From Stenotrophomonas nitritireducens (GTDB taxonomy: Bacteria > Pseudomonadota > Gammaproteobacteria > Xanthomonadales > Xanthomonadaceae), in assembly GCF_001700965.1 (NCBI RefSeq), contig NZ_CP016756.1, positions 3,090,501 to 3,154,500 of the forward strand: DNA of 64,000 nucleotides, written 5' to 3'. The number at the start of each line of letters is the position of its first letter. Position 1 is the stretch's first letter. Under the pieces are notes generated by a model. The model worked only from the letters and a program-made list of their open reading frames with translations. It had not been told where the DNA came from and did no database searches. A program made the position numbers and the translations under genes. Of this stretch, positions 4,789 to 40,046 are shown piece after piece.

Positions 4789-6231
4789 ATGTTCCGCACC
4801 ACGCTCTGGTTGACGGTGGTGACGGTAGCCGGGCTTGCGCTCGGCTTCGGCCGCGAGTGGCTGCTGGTTGATGCCTGGGGCGCAGGTGCACGTACCGATG
4901 GTTTTCTGGTGGCGCTGTTCCTGCCCGAAGCCATCCGCATGACCTTGGCCGCGGGCCTGTTGTCGTCGGCCGCGCTGCCGCTGTATCAACAGCTGGATGT
5001 GGAGCGCCGCAGCGGGTGGGTTTCCACCCAGGTGGCGAGCGTGTTGTTGACCGGTGTGCTGATCAGCCTGGTACTGGCAGTGGCTGCAGGCCTGTGGGTC
5101 AGGTTGATCGGTCCGGGGCTGGCGCCTGCGGCGCAGCACACTGCGCAATCCAGTCTGCTGGTGCTGTCCTGCGTGATACCGATGCTGCTGCTGCATGCAT
5201 TGGCAGCGGCGGTGGGCCAGGCCCAGCAACGTTTTCTGGTGGCCGGTCTCGGCTCGTTTCTCTACAACCTGCCGCCGGTGCTGTTGTTGCTGCAGCAACG
5301 TGGGGCAAGCGATGAGCGCAGCCTGTCGTGGGCATTCGTTGCTGGTGCCGCACTGATGCTGTTGTCGGTGTTGCCACTGCTGTGGCGTGGTGGCTGGCGG
5401 CCGTGGCGCTGGAATTGGCGGCGGCGCGACGCTATCGATCTGTATGCCCGGCTGGGGCCACTGCTTGCCAGCGCCGGTGCCAGCCAGGGGCTCGTGCTTG
5501 TGGAGCGCATCTGCGCTTCTTTCCTCGGCGAAGGTGCCATCACCCTGGTCAACCTGGCGCGCAAGCTGGTCAACCTGCCTTTGGTCGCACTGATGAGTCT
5601 CAACCAGGTTGTGTTGGCGCGCATGGCGCAGTTGGATGAAGACCTCGCCGCGCGGCGCGCTGCTTTGCGCTTTGGTCTGCTGCTGACGGCGGCAATGACC
5701 ATTCCTGCTGCAGCCGGCATGATTGGCAGTGCGCCGTCACTGGTCGAAGTTCTGCTGCCTTCCGGCATGCAGCACGGGCCGTTGCCGATGTTGCTGGCGT
5801 GGTTTGCATGCGTGATTGTTTTCGGCGCATGGAATGCCTTGCTCGCGCGTTACGCCTACGCCATCGGTAACACGGTCTTGCCGATGCGCTATGAGTTGGC
5901 GGGCAGCGCGGTCAACGCCTTGGCACTGGCGTTGGTGCCGGCAGTGACGGGCATTGCCGGTATTGCCTGGGCTGCGTTGGCCGGATGTCTGGTGACTGCC
6001 CTGCTGTTCCTGCGGCGCTACGCGCTGCTGGGTGATCCATTGATGCGGCGATTGCCGGTACTGGCGATGCTGGCGTTGGCCGGGGCGGTGCCGCTGTTCT
6101 GGCTTTCAACGGGAGTGTGGCTGCAGATTTCCGCCGCTGCGCTGTACGCGCTGGCATGGCTGCTGTTGCTGGGAAGTTGGTGCCTACGCGTCGCGCGTGC
6201 GCCGACGGTTGTTCCGGCGAAGTTGACTTGA
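4789..6231 (+). CDS. MurJ/MviN-family lipid-linked oligosaccharide flippase of the polysaccharide locus
   Basis: 480 residues with about fourteen hydrophobic segments. The N-terminal stretch with LGFGREWLLVDAWGAG resembles the start of MurJ and related MOP flippases, in which arginines line the cavity. In this locus it most likely flips the lipid-linked repeat unit, the job Wzx does elsewhere, rather than lipid II. That is inferred from position: it closes an overlapping run of polysaccharide genes, and a terminator-like hairpin follows. Use as a second lipid II flippase cannot be excluded from sequence alone. Confidence 0.78.
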   Translation: MFRTTLWLTVVTVAGLALGFGREWLLVDAWGAGARTDGFLVALFLPEAIRMTLAAGLLSSAALPLYQQLDVERRSGWVSTQVASVLLTGVLISLVLAVAAGLWVRLIGPGLAPAAQHTAQSSLLVLSCVIPMLLLHALAAAVGQAQQRFLVAGLGSFLYNLPPVLLLLQQRGASDERSLSWAFVAGAALMLLSVLPLLWRGGWRPWRWNWRRRDAIDLYARLGPLLASAGASQGLVLVERICASFLGEGAITLVNLARKLVNLPLVALMSLNQVVLARMAQLDEDLAARRAALRFGLLLTAAMTIPAAAGMIGSAPSLVEVLLPSGMQHGPLPMLLAWFACVIVFGAWNALLARYAYAIGNTVLPMRYELAGSAVNALALALVPAVTGIAGIAWAALAGCLVTALLFLRRYALLGDPLMRRLPVLAMLALAGAVPLFWLSTGVWLQISAAALYALAWLLLLGSWCLRVARAPTVVPAKLT

Positions 6232-6345
6232 GTGGGCGGCTTGAACAGCCGACATTGACGCTCATGCAACGCGTTTGAACCGCGCGTTCTGCATGCCCAT
6301 TCGACTGTGCCTGGCAACGCTGCGCAGTTTCAATGGGCCACCGAC

Positions 6346-6378
6346 AACAGCCACGGTGTGCTCAGCGCCGTGGCTGTT
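6346..6378. terminator. bidirectional hairpin between convergent genes
   Basis: Perfect 11-bp inverted repeat AACAGCCACGG / CCGTGGCTGTT with an 11-base loop. It lies between the end of the polysaccharide operon (+) and the end of the lone pilin gene (-). There is no long T-run, so termination is inferred from symmetry and position. Confidence 0.6.
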
Positions 6379-35316: not shown

Positions 35317-35751
35317 GTGGAAACAGCAACATTGGAAAAGCTCAGGGCCAAGGTGAGTGATGCAGCGTCACCTTCGTCCAGCGTGGATGGCGCGGCGCTC
35401 GAAACCGAACTCGACAAGGTCATCGAGCGCAGCACCGGCATTTCCATGCTGCTGGTATCCACGGCCGATGGCCGCGCGATCGCTCACCGTTCGTTGAACA
35501 AGCTTGATCCTCGCCGCTTGTCGGCGATGAGCAACTCGTTTCTTACGCTCGGTGAAACCCTCTCGCGCGAGCTTGGCCTCAGCACCGCGGATTACGTGAC
35601 CATGTCCACCTCGCAGGGCAGCATGGTGCTGGTGCGCGTTGCCGCGGACCGGCCTTACACGTTGGCTGCGCTGGGGCATGCCGATACATCGCTCGCCATC
35701 CTGTTGTATGCCGCCCGCGATGCCGCGGCGCGGATCAAGCAGTTGCTGTAA
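35317..35751 (+). CDS. Roadblock/LC7 protein A (MglB/CvnB-like)
   Basis: 144 residues. A single Roadblock/LC7 domain spans about 25-135: ELDKVIERSTGISMLLVSTADGRAIAHRS, then FLTLGETLSRELG, TMSTSQGSMVLVRV and TLAALGHADTSLAILLYAARDAA. Such proteins dimerise and act as regulators of small GTPases. Start GTG 35317 has AGGGG eight bases upstream; an ATG at 35269 would add 16 residues. It is the first of four co-directed genes that end with a GTPase gene. Confidence 0.82.
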   Translation: METATLEKLRAKVSDAASPSSSVDGAALETELDKVIERSTGISMLLVSTADGRAIAHRSLNKLDPRRLSAMSNSFLTLGETLSRELGLSTADYVTMSTSQGSMVLVRVAADRPYTLAALGHADTSLAILLYAARDAAARIKQLL

Positions 35752-35908
35752 CTCACCCGTTGCAGAGCATCCGTGCTGCAGTTCGCCTGGCGTGCCGGGA
35801 AACCTGCGCGGCTGATCGATACGGGCTGCAGAAACACGGGTGTCGCCGGGCATGCGCCTGACCGCACCACACCTCATAGACAACATTCGCTCAGGAACGG
35901 AGAACACC

Positions 35909-36271
35909 ATGGCTGGAAACGTCAAGCTGGACAAGTTGAATGAAATCGCAGGTTTCGTCGGCGCTGCACTGGTCGACAGTGACAGTGGCATGGCGTTGGG
36001 CATGCTGGGCGGTGGCCCGATCAATCTGGAAGTTGCGGCCGCAGGCAACACCGAAGTGGTGCGCGCCAAGCGCCGCGTCGCTGCCTCGCTGGGCATCACC
36101 GATGCGATTGAAGACATCCTGATCACCCTGACCAGGCAGTACCACCTGATCCGTCCGCTGGAAAGCAACGCGGACCTGTTCCTGTACGTGGTGCTTGACC
36201 GTTCGCGCGCCAACCTGGCGCTGGCCCGCCATGAGCTGAAGTCGTTCGAACAGACGCTCGATTTCAAGTGA
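35909..36271 (+). CDS. Roadblock/LC7-like protein B
   Basis: 120 residues. KLDKLNEIAGFVGAALVDSDSGMALGMLGGG matches the first half of a Roadblock fold; DILITLTRQYHLIRPL and FLYVVLDRSRANLALARHELKSFE match the second half. ATG 35909 has GGAG eight bases upstream. 157 bases separate it from Roadblock A. It probably pairs with protein A or forms its own dimer on the GTPase. Confidence 0.75.
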   Translation: MAGNVKLDKLNEIAGFVGAALVDSDSGMALGMLGGGPINLEVAAAGNTEVVRAKRRVAASLGITDAIEDILITLTRQYHLIRPLESNADLFLYVVLDRSRANLALARHELKSFEQTLDFK

Positions 36272-36309
36272 TGCAACGCCGAGCCGCTGCTCCGTGACGG
36301 AGCAGCGGC

Positions 36310-37305
36310 ATGGCAGCCAAGCATCGACCCACAGGCCTGATCGACACGATGAGTGCACCCGCCCGCAAGATTTCCACCGCAGTGATCGGATGCAAGGGCC
36401 TGGATGTCCTGCACATGATGCGGTTGAAAGTGGCCAGTTCGTTGCTGATGGCCGAGTACATCCAGGCAGAGGTGCAGGAGTGGAATCACCAGTCGGTGGA
36501 TCTGCTGGTGGCCTGCATCGACGACAGCAATGGCCAGCAGGCGCTGCGCGATGCCAATCTCAGGGGACTGCCGGTGTTGGCGGTCACCCGCAAGCTGCTC
36601 TCCGGGCTGTCTGTGCCGGGTGTGGCCTACGGCGCCAGCGTGCGCGATATCTTCCAGCAGTTGCGCCAGCTGTTGCTGGCCTCGGACGGCGGTGGCGAGC
36701 GCTTCCAGCCGCGTACCTTGTTCCGCAGCCTTGGTGATACCCAGGGCAAACCCAGCGTGCTGCATATGGGCCTGGTCAAGGTGATGGTCGATGCGGCGCG
36801 CGCGCGGGTCACCCTGCTGCGTGATCTGCCGTACGAAAACTGCCTCAATGCGGCGGCCGAGCCCGGCTGGACGCTGTCGCTGCTGGCAGGCGCGCCGGCG
36901 CTGGAAGAGGCGATGGCCGATGCGGTCAGCACGCATGCATTCGAGGATTTCTGCTGGCAGGCGGCGGCGTTATCCTCGGCGCCGCTGCTGGAGCAGGAAA
37001 CCACCGGCCTGTGCCAGCTGCGCGGCTGGCCCGAGGTGGAAACCGGCAAGTTGCCGCTGGCGTGGTTGCTGCCGATGGCGGCGATGATGCTGCGGCCGTG
37101 GCAACCGGGGCAGCTGGCGCTTGCCACTGACACGTCACTGGATGACATTGCCCGTATCATTGCGGCGGCGGCATGTACCGGGCTGCTGGATGCCAGTGGT
37201 AGCCAGACGACAGGTGATCGGCCTTCGGACAACAAGGTCTCAGGCTTCTTCACGCGTATCGCCAAGCGATTCGGGCTCAATTTCTCCAAGGGGCTTCAGG
37301 TCTGA
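36310..37305 (+). CDS. unknown protein of the Roadblock/GTPase cassette, pseudo-receiver-like N-terminus
   Basis: 331 residues, no family recognised with confidence. Residues about 20-110 have the alternating strand/helix pattern of a receiver-like domain (ISTAVIGC ... DLLVACIDD ... GLPVLAVTRKLL) without the normal phosphorylation site set. The middle is mixed. Residues about 250-300 are a helical module (SLDDIARIIAAAACTGLLDAS) of the kind seen in winged-helix and DUF742/PATAN-type proteins. ATG 36310 has GGAG eight bases upstream; ATG 36349 is an alternative. It ends five bases before the GTPase gene, so joint translation is likely. Confidence 0.7.
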   Translation: MAAKHRPTGLIDTMSAPARKISTAVIGCKGLDVLHMMRLKVASSLLMAEYIQAEVQEWNHQSVDLLVACIDDSNGQQALRDANLRGLPVLAVTRKLLSGLSVPGVAYGASVRDIFQQLRQLLLASDGGGERFQPRTLFRSLGDTQGKPSVLHMGLVKVMVDAARARVTLLRDLPYENCLNAAAEPGWTLSLLAGAPALEEAMADAVSTHAFEDFCWQAAALSSAPLLEQETTGLCQLRGWPEVETGKLPLAWLLPMAAMMLRPWQPGQLALATDTSLDDIARIIAAAACTGLLDASGSQTTGDRPSDNKVSGFFTRIAKRFGLNFSKGLQV

Positions 37306-37310
37306 CGGAT

Positions 37311-37856
37311 ATGGCAACCAAGTTGGTTTTTGTCGGTGAAATGGGTGCGGGTAAAACGACTGCGATCCGGTCGATCTCGGACATGGAACCGATCAGCACG
37401 GAAATGCCGATCAGCGACGACGCCGCATTGGCAGCATTCGAGGACAAGTCGCATACGACCGTGGCGCTGGATTACAGCTCCATTGAACTGGGCGATGGTG
37501 AGCTGTTGCATGTCTACGGCGTGCCGGGCCAGGCTTATCTGGATTTCATGTGGCCGATCGTCGCCGAAGGCGCAATCGGCGTGATCGTACTTGTGAGCGC
37601 ACTCAACCCGCGCGCGCTGCCAAGTACGTTGACTCTGCTGGAGCGCTTCCGTGGCCTAGCACCGGAAGCCTGTTTCGCCGTGGGCGTGACCTGCCAGGAC
37701 CGCGAACCCGATTTCAGTTTCGCCCAGTTCCGCAACGCACTGGCCAGCGAAGGCCATCGCCTGCCAGTGATGTGGGTAGACGCACGCGAAACCAGCCAGG
37801 TCGATTTCCTGATCAAGGCGCTGCTGTCCTGCCGCTACGCCGAATCGATCGCCTGA
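37311..37856 (+). CDS. MglA/CvnD-like small GTPase
   Basis: 181 residues. G1/P-loop GEMGAGKTT (residues 9-17), a switch I segment with HTTVALDYSSIEL, and G3 VYGVPGQAYLDFMW, the GxPGQ form that replaces DxxG in MglA and in the GTPases of actinobacterial conservons. The G4 position reads VTCQDRE instead of NKxD, again as in conservon GTPases. Together with two Roadblock proteins upstream it forms a switch module. In related systems this controls cell polarity, type IV pili or development; here the output is unknown. It is the last gene of the cassette; a repeat array follows. Confidence 0.85.
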   Translation: MATKLVFVGEMGAGKTTAIRSISDMEPISTEMPISDDAALAAFEDKSHTTVALDYSSIELGDGELLHVYGVPGQAYLDFMWPIVAEGAIGVIVLVSALNPRALPSTLTLLERFRGLAPEACFAVGVTCQDREPDFSFAQFRNALASEGHRLPVMWVDARETSQVDFLIKALLSCRYAESIA

Positions 37857-37891
37857 TACGCAGTCGCAGCGGCTGCTTTGCTGCGGTTGCA

Positions 37892-38582
37892 GGAGCGGCG
37901 TAGGCCGCGAAGCCACGAAAACATCAGATTACAGTTTTGCCTGGCACTGAACTGCCGCCAGCCTCGCGGCTGACGCCGCTCCCACAAACATACATACACA
38001 CAAATGCATGCCCAGCGTTGCTGCGGGAAGCTGCTTTGCTGTTTTTGTGGGAGTGGCGTCAGCCACGAAGCCACTGCAGCATCAGATTGCGGTTCTGCTT
38101 AGCACTGACCTACTGCCAGCTTCGCGGCTGACGCCGATCCCACAAACAGACATCCATGCCCAGCGTTGCTGCTGGAGCTGCTTTACTGCGGTTGTAGGAG
38201 CGGCGTAAGCCGCGAAGCCACGACAACATCAGATTGCAGTTTTGCCCGGCACTGAACTGCCGCCAGCTTCGCGGCTGACGCCGCTCCTAGACATACAAAT
38301 GCATGCGCAGCGCTGCTGGAGCTGCTTTACTGCGGTTGTAGGAGCGGCATACGCCGCGAAGCTACTGCAGCATCAGATTGCAGTTTTTGCCGGCACCGTT
38401 CTGCTGCCAGCTTCGCGGCTGACGCCGCTCCTACACATACAAATGCATGCGCAGCGCTGTCGTGCGAGAACTGCTTCGCTCTGGCTGTGGGAGCGGCATA
38501 AGCCGCGAAGCTACTGAAGCATCAGATTGCAGTATTACTGGGACCGACCTGCTGCCAGCTTCGCGGCTTACGCCGCTCCCAC
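37892..38582. repeat. array of five tandem REP-like dimers
   Basis: Five units begin at about 37892, 38050, 38197, 38341 and 38490 (spacing 158, 147, 144 and 149). Each starts with a hairpin GGAGCGGCGTAAGCCGC, then CGAAGC, runs about 55 bases through CATCAGATTGCAG, and ends with the reverse complement (GCTTCGCGGCTGACGCC, then GCTCC). A spacer with ACAAATGCATGC separates units. Unit 2 has compensatory changes in both hairpin halves (GGAGTGGCGTCAGCCAC), so the fold is kept. It fills the 800 bases between the GTPase gene (+) and the oxidase gene (-), both ending here. Small ORFs within it are artefacts of the repeat. Confidence 0.85.
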
Positions 38583-38657
38583 AGATACGCACACAAATGC
38601 ATGCCCGACGGTGCTGCCGGTGTGCCGCGCCCACTTGCCCCTCAAAACCTACAAGGC

Positions 38658-40046
38658 CTATGGGCCCTCTTGCTCCGGCAACACCTTGCCGGGATTTAGG
38701 ATCCCATCCGGGTCCAGCGCCTGCTTGATGGCGCGCATTGTCGCCAGGGTGCCTGCCGAAAATGCCTGGGTCATGAAGTCGCGTTTGGCCAAGCCGATGC
38801 CGTGTTCGCCGGACAACGTGCCGCCCAGTTGCAGGGCCAGTTCAAATACCTTTGGCAGTGCCGCATGCGCGCGCTCGTTCTCGCTGGCATCGTCCGGGTG
38901 ATAGAGGATGTTGACGTGCAGGTTGCCGTTGCCGGCATGGCCAAAGGTGACGATCGGCAGCTGCGTCTGCGCCGACAGCTGTTGCACGCCTTCCACCAGT
39001 GCTGGAATCTGCGATACCGGCACCACCACGTCTTCGTTGATCTTGCCTGGCGCGATGGTTTTCAACGCCGGCGACAAGGCGCGCCGTGCCGCCCACAGCT
39101 TGTCGCGCGCGCTGCCATCGGTGGCCACGTCCAGCGCCAGCATGCCATCGCCCTCGGCGGCTTCTGCCAGCGCATTGAGCAGATAGGGCAGGGTGTCGTC
39201 GTCGCCATCGGCATCGATCAATAGCATCGCGCCGGCTTCGGGTACCTGCGCGCCGTTGTGGCGCAGCAGCTGCAGGCTGCGTGCGTCCATGAATTCCAGG
39301 GTGGTGGGCGTTACCGGCTGCGCCATCACCCGCGATACCGCCGCCGCTGCCGCTTCCGCATCGCGGTACAGCACGCGCAGGCCGGCCTGGCTGCGCGGGC
39401 GCGGGGTCAGCTTGAGCGTGGCCTCGACGATCAGCGCCAGCGTACCTTCACTGCCAACCAGCAGATGGGTGAGGTCGTAGCCGGTGGAATCCTTGGTGTA
39501 CGGGCCGCCGCATTGAATCAATTCGCCGGTGCCGGTGACCGCCACCAGCCCAAGCACGTTGTCGCGGCTGGTGCCGTATTTCACCGCGCGCGGCCCCCCG
39601 GCATTGCAGGCCAGGTTGCCGCCGATGCTGCAGATGTCTGCGCTGGAGGGGTCCGGCGGCCAGAACAGGCCGTGCGGCATCAATGCCTGCTGCAGGTCGC
39701 CGTTGAGTACGCCGGGTTCGACCACCGCACAGCGATCGCCAGGGAGGATGGCGACGATGCGGTTCATATGCGCGAACGACAGCACGATGCCGCCGGCAGT
39801 CGGCACGGCGGCGCCGGTGGTGCCGGTGCCGGTGCCGCGGCCCACCAGCGGCACGCCGTGCTGGCGGCAGGCGCGGACGATGGCCTGCACCTGTTCGCGG
39901 CTGCGTGGCATCGCCACGCCCTGCGGCAGCGCATGCCGCCAGGAGTTGTCCTGGGCATGCGCCTGCAGGCTGCCGGGGTCGGTGTGCCAGTCATCGCCAA
40001 GCAGCTGTGACAGGGTGTGTTCGAAAGCAGCGGGCAATGGGGTCAT
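38658..40046 (-). CDS. FAD-linked oxidase (GlcD / D-lactate dehydrogenase family)
   Basis: 462 residues. The PCMH-type FAD domain covers about 35-215 (PLVGRGTGTGTTGAAVP, CAVVEPGV, ADICSIGGNLACNAGGPRAVKYG). The C-terminal FAD-oxidase domain carries FGHAGNGNLHVN and GTLSGEHGIGLAKR, the metal and substrate motifs. It oxidises a 2-hydroxy acid such as D-lactate, glycolate or D-2-hydroxyglutarate; the sequence does not settle which. ATG 40046 is chosen because it overlaps the stop of the gene upstream (ATGA) and starts at the family N-terminus. Confidence 0.9.
   Translation of the reverse strand: MTPLPAAFEHTLSQLLGDDWHTDPGSLQAHAQDNSWRHALPQGVAMPRSREQVQAIVRACRQHGVPLVGRGTGTGTTGAAVPTAGGIVLSFAHMNRIVAILPGDRCAVVEPGVLNGDLQQALMPHGLFWPPDPSSADICSIGGNLACNAGGPRAVKYGTSRDNVLGLVAVTGTGELIQCGGPYTKDSTGYDLTHLLVGSEGTLALIVEATLKLTPRPRSQAGLRVLYRDAEAAAAAVSRVMAQPVTPTTLEFMDARSLQLLRHNGAQVPEAGAMLLIDADGDDDTLPYLLNALAEAAEGDGMLALDVATDGSARDKLWAARRALSPALKTIAPGKINEDVVVPVSQIPALVEGVQQLSAQTQLPIVTFGHAGNGNLHVNILYHPDDASENERAHAALPKVFELALQLGGTLSGEHGIGLAKRDFMTQAFSAGTLATMRAIKQALDPDGILNPGKVLPEQEGP

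Follow-up and report, generated by a model that had tools for sequence, protein, structure and literature searches.

The window analysed here is a stretch of 64,000 nucleotides (nt) from Stenotrophomonas nitritireducens (contig NZ_CP016756.1, positions 3,090,501–3,154,500). At window positions 35317–37856 it carries four plus strand genes, as had been claimed in a first-pass annotation of the sequence. Their products are RB1, a Roadblock protein; RB2, which is Roadblock-like and divergent; P, an unclassified protein; and a GTPase with a GxPGQ motif. Judged by motifs and gene neighbourhood rather than by a tree, the cassette is very probably a Group 3 MglA system. The gene set is recurrently linked, P displays a conserved motif and a conserved tail, its N-terminal domain is replaced by another in some relatives, and the acidic pocket of a receiver is missing. 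Tentatively, P is read here as an input adaptor that places the Roadblock-regulated GTPase at the membrane and probably steers surface behavior. The features are as follows, with protein lengths in amino acids (aa).

35317–35751, plus strand: RB1, MglB-type Roadblock/LC7 protein, 144 aa, GTG start (Pfam Robl_LC7, E-value = 1.8e-6; tblastn)
35909–36271, plus strand: RB2, short and highly conserved Roadblock-like protein, 120 aa (family alignment; 4 of 16 members match Robl_LC7)
36278–36314, plus strand: strong predicted RNA hairpin between the RB2 and P genes (z = −4.9)
36349–37305, plus strand: P, putative adaptor protein, 318 aa (31 homologues, alignment of 17, AlphaFold2 models)
36370–36684, plus strand: N-terminal receiver-fold domain of P, residues 8–112, usual acidic pocket not conserved
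37027–37032, plus strand: Trp-Pro (WP) motif of P, residues 227–228 (alignment of 57 P proteins)
37057–37179, plus strand: winged-helix-like part of P, residues 237–277
37243–37269, plus strand: C-terminal basic tail helix of P, residues 299–307, GFFTRIAKR, followed by FGLNF (two models; tail comparison)
37311–37856, plus strand: MglA-family GTPase, 181 aa, with GVPGQ in G3, Thr-Thr in G2, DAR in G5 and a degenerate G4

Group 3 MglA systems of the beta- and gamma-Proteobacteria were defined in 2014, with Stenotrophomonas and Xanthomonas named (Wuichet and Sogaard-Andersen, 2014, PMC4316618), and the first-pass suggestion of a system new to a gammaproteobacterium is therefore not supported. In the passages of that paper drawn on here, the Group 3 neighbourhood consists of one or two MglB and a conserved unknown protein with a receiver-like plus winged-helix architecture, and a role in transcription is suggested. 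The window cassette resembles this description in its GTPase motifs, its gammaproteobacterial host, RB1 and RB2 in the place of MglB, and P in the place of the unknown protein. A conserved unknown protein and Roadblock genes are thus both found, with RB2 below Pfam detection. What goes beyond the same passages is the replacement of the receiver part by BLUF, the basic tail, the WP motif, permuted gene orders, the loss of P alone, and RB2 in phage and plasmid sequences. The class is already known; the adaptor reading of P is absent from these passages and is testable.

The GTPase matches PF03029 (E-value = 6.8e-7). As a single sequence it gives a weak match to MglA in the PDB (E-value = 0.01); its family profile matches MglA at 6e-10 and eukaryotic Sec4/Rab somewhat better, at 3.6e-12. 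MglA is the sole bacterial protein among the PDB matches listed. The GVPGQ and VTCQD motifs are present as first annotated. Residues G70, P72, G73 and Q74 of GVPGQ are invariant across 17 aligned GTPases, and the G3 motif is GxPGQ without Asp. G4 deviates (VTCQD), G5 has DAR (VDAR), and G2 reads HTTVALDY vs DRTLFFDF in MglA, with Thr at the position of the intrinsic Arg finger. Group 1 MglA is recognized by an intrinsic Arg finger and TVPGQ; the window GTPase has Thr and GVPGQ. Thus the cassette shares its switch architecture with the Group 1 MglA/MglB of Myxococcus but differs in Thr-Thr vs Arg-Thr and in the additional putative adaptor gene.

RB1 lies above the Pfam cut-off for Robl_LC7, and by tblastn the corresponding position is matched in loci L036, L038 and L039. 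RB2 itself shows no Pfam Robl_LC7 match. In its family, 4 of 16 aligned members match Robl_LC7 at E ≤ 1 (best, 1e-8), and the top PDB match of the family profile is a Roadblock/LC7 protein (E-value = 0.0032). Together with the MglA match of the GTPase profile, these results bear out a Roadblock/MglA-type switch.

The closest named relatives belong to Stenotrophomonas. The order RB1, RB2, P, GTPase is found again in other genera, at a P identity of only about 28–30%, which speaks for more than chance. Lack of conservation as a unit, which would have counted against the first-pass reading, is not seen: the cassette recurs, with one locus (L080) lacking P. In L007–L015, RB2, P and the GTPase are kept together despite a low P identity to the window protein of about 28–31% over most of its length (RB2, 74–78%; GTPase, 61–63%). 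RB1 precedes these three genes in stretches that extend far enough (L038, L039, L081–L097). A set of 120 RB2 loci, which are not independent, was assembled from the best 80 of a contig scan and 20 each from two further searches. Gene order was scored by stop codons, and P candidates were required to have a tail charge of at least +1. The GTPase is found in 80 of the 120 loci (81 GTPases in all). Among the 81, RB1-RB2-P-GTPase occurs 25 times, RB2-P-GTPase-RB1 25 times and P-GTPase-RB1-RB2 seven times, all cyclic permutations of one order (57 in total). Another 18 have P unrecognised, extra frames or partial loci. An apparent order RB1-RB2-GTPase-P, seen at three loci when frames were sorted by start, was rejected, as the stop-codon count showed artefacts or extra frames. 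In a further variant, at L042 and L025, the Roadblock-like gene upstream is of another kind; a short P is also present in L042.

The contig scan gave at least 532 confirmed RB2 relatives, and the best 80 of these, where a finer name is given, belong to Xanthomonadales and Moraxellaceae. Of the 369 genomes of the class, 18 match the RB2 profile at an E-value of 1e-6, as do 40 of the 398 of the phylum. The GTPase query has matches in 38 of 149 family genomes, with close and distant types pooled. Another cassette (L035) lies near 1.819 Mb of the S. nitritireducens genome itself, and in it a P-like protein, a GTPase and a Roadblock protein follow one another in that order; no RB2 match is found within that stretch.

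P was initially described as an unrecognised protein of 331 residues. The 331-residue frame matches nothing in Pfam at E = 1 and nothing in NCBIfam, so that part stands; the length does not. In the alignment of 17 the shared ATG is at 36349, which gives 318 aa, and 24 of 31 homologues have 315–322 aa. The upstream ATG at 36310, which would give 331 aa, falls within the predicted RNA hairpin. The N-terminus of P has a receiver fold. A phosphorylatable receiver has an acidic pair after strand 1 and an Asp after strand 3. Among the 57 aligned P proteins, position 16 after strand 1 is mostly Ala, Ser or Val, position 17 is Gly in 46 and Asp in one, and the strand-3 phosphoacceptor site (position 56, an approximate position since the alignment spans divergent proteins) is Asp in seven. 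The WP motif is nearly invariant in the same proteins (W in 57/57, P in 56/57); the pattern is absent from nine P-slot proteins of other loci. In AlphaFold2 models the C-terminal part is helical and appears winged-helix-like, in agreement with the helical C-terminal module first annotated. Foldseek gave no match to this part at E ≤ 0.001 in the fold lists searched. The P alignment leaves out L093, L094, L138, L104 and L100, whose frames are broken, cut or badly called. L090, with a stop character and read from before its start, is in the counts of 57 and out of those of 56.

The N-terminal domain of P is exchangeable and its C-terminal module constant, because proteins with a BLUF photosensor in place of the pseudo-receiver occupy the P slot. 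Six such relatives are found in total. An Agarilytica plasmid carries, in this order, RB2, a BLUF protein, a GTPase and a Roadblock protein; after its BLUF part the second of these has a WPDF stretch, and its C-terminal end is a basic tail. Five further BLUF-WP proteins, from three genomes of one family, are found in the P slot among ten P-slot proteins scanned, and a GTPase follows four of the five. BLUF is absent from ten more P-slot proteins scanned. A PATAN/DUF4388 domain considered for the short P-slot proteins L204–L206 and L213 was rejected for want of Pfam support. A literature search for BLUF with roadblock, small GTPase or MglA returned nothing on the combination among the matches listed, except one cyanobacterial phototaxis paper naming BLUF, small GTPase and MglA.

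The P tail is helical in both AlphaFold2 models, at low to middling confidence. Over the last 24 residues a charge of +2 or more is displayed by 65 of 69 distinct P tails vs 83 of 319 control proteins, and charge and hydrophobic moment together single out 38 of the 69 vs 23 of the 319 (Fisher p = 2.5e-18, which overstates the difference because P relatives are not independent). The controls are rough gene calls, possibly with wrong frames among them; the 69 exclude L080, L094, L190 and rows that duplicate the last 14 residues of another. In 51 of 56 P proteins the moment of the tail exceeds the 95th percentile for the protein to which it belongs.

A mechanism consistent with these features would run as follows. 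The two Roadblock-type proteins would set the nucleotide state of the GTPase, RB1 as the MglB-like protein and RB2 as a conserved partner, with presumed GAP or GEF roles. P would be modular and couple this switch to an input through an exchangeable sensor domain at its N-terminus. In the window P this domain is a pseudo-receiver, which probably responds to another protein and not to phosphate; in some relatives it is a BLUF blue-light sensor. The constant winged-helix-like part may bind a Roadblock-GTPase complex, and the basic tail may anchor that complex to the inner membrane. Once active, the GTPase could act on a surface machine, for which type IV pili are the most likely, if weakly indicated, candidate. 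Group 3 MglA systems are catalogued and, judging by the papers listed, seem barely tested; among these papers the one experimental study is in Snodgrassella (PMC11112851). Through the BLUF swap, blue light becomes a known stimulus for a Ras-like switch of bacteria, so that input, localisation and output are directly testable. More speculatively, Group 3 MglA systems in general could be modular sense-and-place devices, in which a winged-helix and basic-tail adaptor takes varied sensors, a light-gated membrane switch among them, and RB2 could be an independent, very widespread platform that is also phage- and plasmid-borne.

Several results weigh against this mechanism and its surface output. 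PilT is found in 18 of 18 RB2-positive class genomes (E-value = 3.5e-133 or better) and also above cut-off in 309 of 369 class genomes; co-occurrence with PilT was rejected as support because PilT is too common to discriminate, which leaves the link to pili weak. Within the window the cassette has no pilus gene next to it. In Stenotrophomonas sp. Iso1 (L080), P is nearly all gone, with its last codons remaining before an intact GTPase frame. The frames of RB1 and RB2 are likewise intact, so P seems not always to be needed, an assembly error being possible. The BLUF-WP protein at L179:6147–6935 has no GTPase match alongside. No GTPase is found within the stretch at 40 of the 120 RB2 loci, some cut by contig ends, and RB2 therefore seems to work outside the cassette too. 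Six of the 81 gene orders are non-cyclic, all in Acinetobacter: GTPase-P-RB2 once and GTPase-RB1-P-RB2 five times (L137, L140, L145, L150, L151), where P sits between both Roadblock-type genes. The BLUF-type tail of L178 has a charge of +1 only. The tail moment exceeds that of composition-matched shuffles (p < 0.05) in just 9 of 56 P proteins, and the tail may thus be a docking peptide.

In such a case the basic tail would dock on the GTPase or the Roadblock dimer, and P would be a soluble GTPase regulator. The 47 of 56 tails with a moment not above shuffles point this way, as do the low-confidence linker preceding the tail in the models and the residues fixed in the window P family (R303, A305, R307, F308, G309 and L310, invariant in 17 aligned). 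From family to family, however, the tail largely preserves its charge and hydrophobic pattern but not its side chains, which is more like membrane helices, and docking is considered rather unlikely. Comparably unlikely is the suggestion, found in the cited passages of PMC4316618, that such a system regulates genes, with P as a DNA-binding, response-regulator-like transcription factor under control of the Roadblock-GTPase pair. The receiver fold with a winged-helix-like part agrees with it, as do weak sub-threshold matches of P relatives to HTH families and a Streptomyces plasmid on which an RB2 relative adjoins a DUF4388+HTH protein whose annotation is that of a transcriptional regulator. The presumed recognition helix of P is not basic (44 of 56 proteins have a neutral or acidic one), and the helix and tail data together make membrane placement by P a concrete alternative to that published suggestion.

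The cassette also resembles the actinobacterial conservons (CvnA–D) in combining a Roadblock protein, a GxPGQ GTPase and a small partner. A conservon of the actinobacterial type (sensor kinase, Roadblock, DUF742, GTPase) whose kinase has become detached would account for this shared GTPase type and Roadblock partner, and a Streptomyces RB2 neighbour gives a sub-threshold DUF742 match (E-value = 0.027). Unlike conservons, the window cassette has no adjacent kinase, no DUF742 and a second Roadblock-like gene. No histidine kinase is found among the four flanking genes examined by Pfam, NusB and ThiL upstream and a FAD-linked oxidase and YdjM downstream (no search was made for a CvnA-like kinase in the rest of the genome), and the absence of a sensor kinase noted at first is confirmed to that extent. 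No DUF742 model matches P and no match above cut-off is found in the whole genome. Thus the CvnC role proposed for P in the first-pass annotation is at most an analogy; conservon membership was rejected, and the detached-kinase version is very improbable.

RB2 also occurs outside the cassette. A second copy in the same genome (G000:C1:3696025–3696385) is 77% identical and has no cassette GTPase match beside it. In the parts of the Snodgrassella study drawn on here, the Group 3 mgl locus has one mglA and two coupled mglB, one of them similar to a third, orphan mglB (121 aa). The orphan is linked to spreading on soft agar and to gut competition in bees (PMC11112851). The window genome is similar in having RB1 and RB2 plus another RB2 copy elsewhere, likened to the orphan by description only; the Snodgrassella effects come from a host other than Stenotrophomonas. 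RB2 relatives are found in 28 plasmid records (Streptomyces, Hymenobacter, Deinococcus and others), with 50–66% identity among the 20 listed of the 28. There is no match of RB2 to annotated phage records. IMG/VR yields five RB2 loci, and phage genes surround RB2 in three (L163–L165).

Four Acinetobacter-like contigs have an RB2 copy close to phage genes: L163, L164 and L165 (about 5992–6360 in each) and L118 (6004–6360). Terminase is found in L163 and L164, portal in L163, a Q-like antiterminator in L163 and L165, and endolysin in L118; the L163 RB2 copy has no PHROG match. The IMG/VR contig L166 (5470–6357) carries a DUF4388 domain (E-value = 1.3e-16) fused in front of RB2. On the Streptomyces plasmids L168 and L169, RB2 relatives adjoin a Robl_LC7 gene and the gene of a DUF4388-like protein; no GTPase is annotated within the stretch. 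In Moraxella lacunata (L148:5992–6348), RB2 is found without a GTPase, and the genes directly after it presumably resemble type IV minor pilins.

Within the cassette region the intergenic distances are 143 bases (ThiL-RB1), 157 (RB1-RB2), 77 (RB2-P) and 5 (P-GTPase). A sigma-70 promoter scan found none vs 0.5 expected, and a terminator scan found two vs 1.9 expected. The hairpin at 36278–36314 may separate RB2 expression from that of P and the GTPase; z is ≤ −2 in 7 of 10 loci folded, Xanthomonas and Acinetobacter included, with L080, L095 and L039 as exceptions. On the 3′ side of the GTPase, at 37880–38700, repeated GC-rich palindrome-like units are seen by eye and are perhaps REP-type elements.
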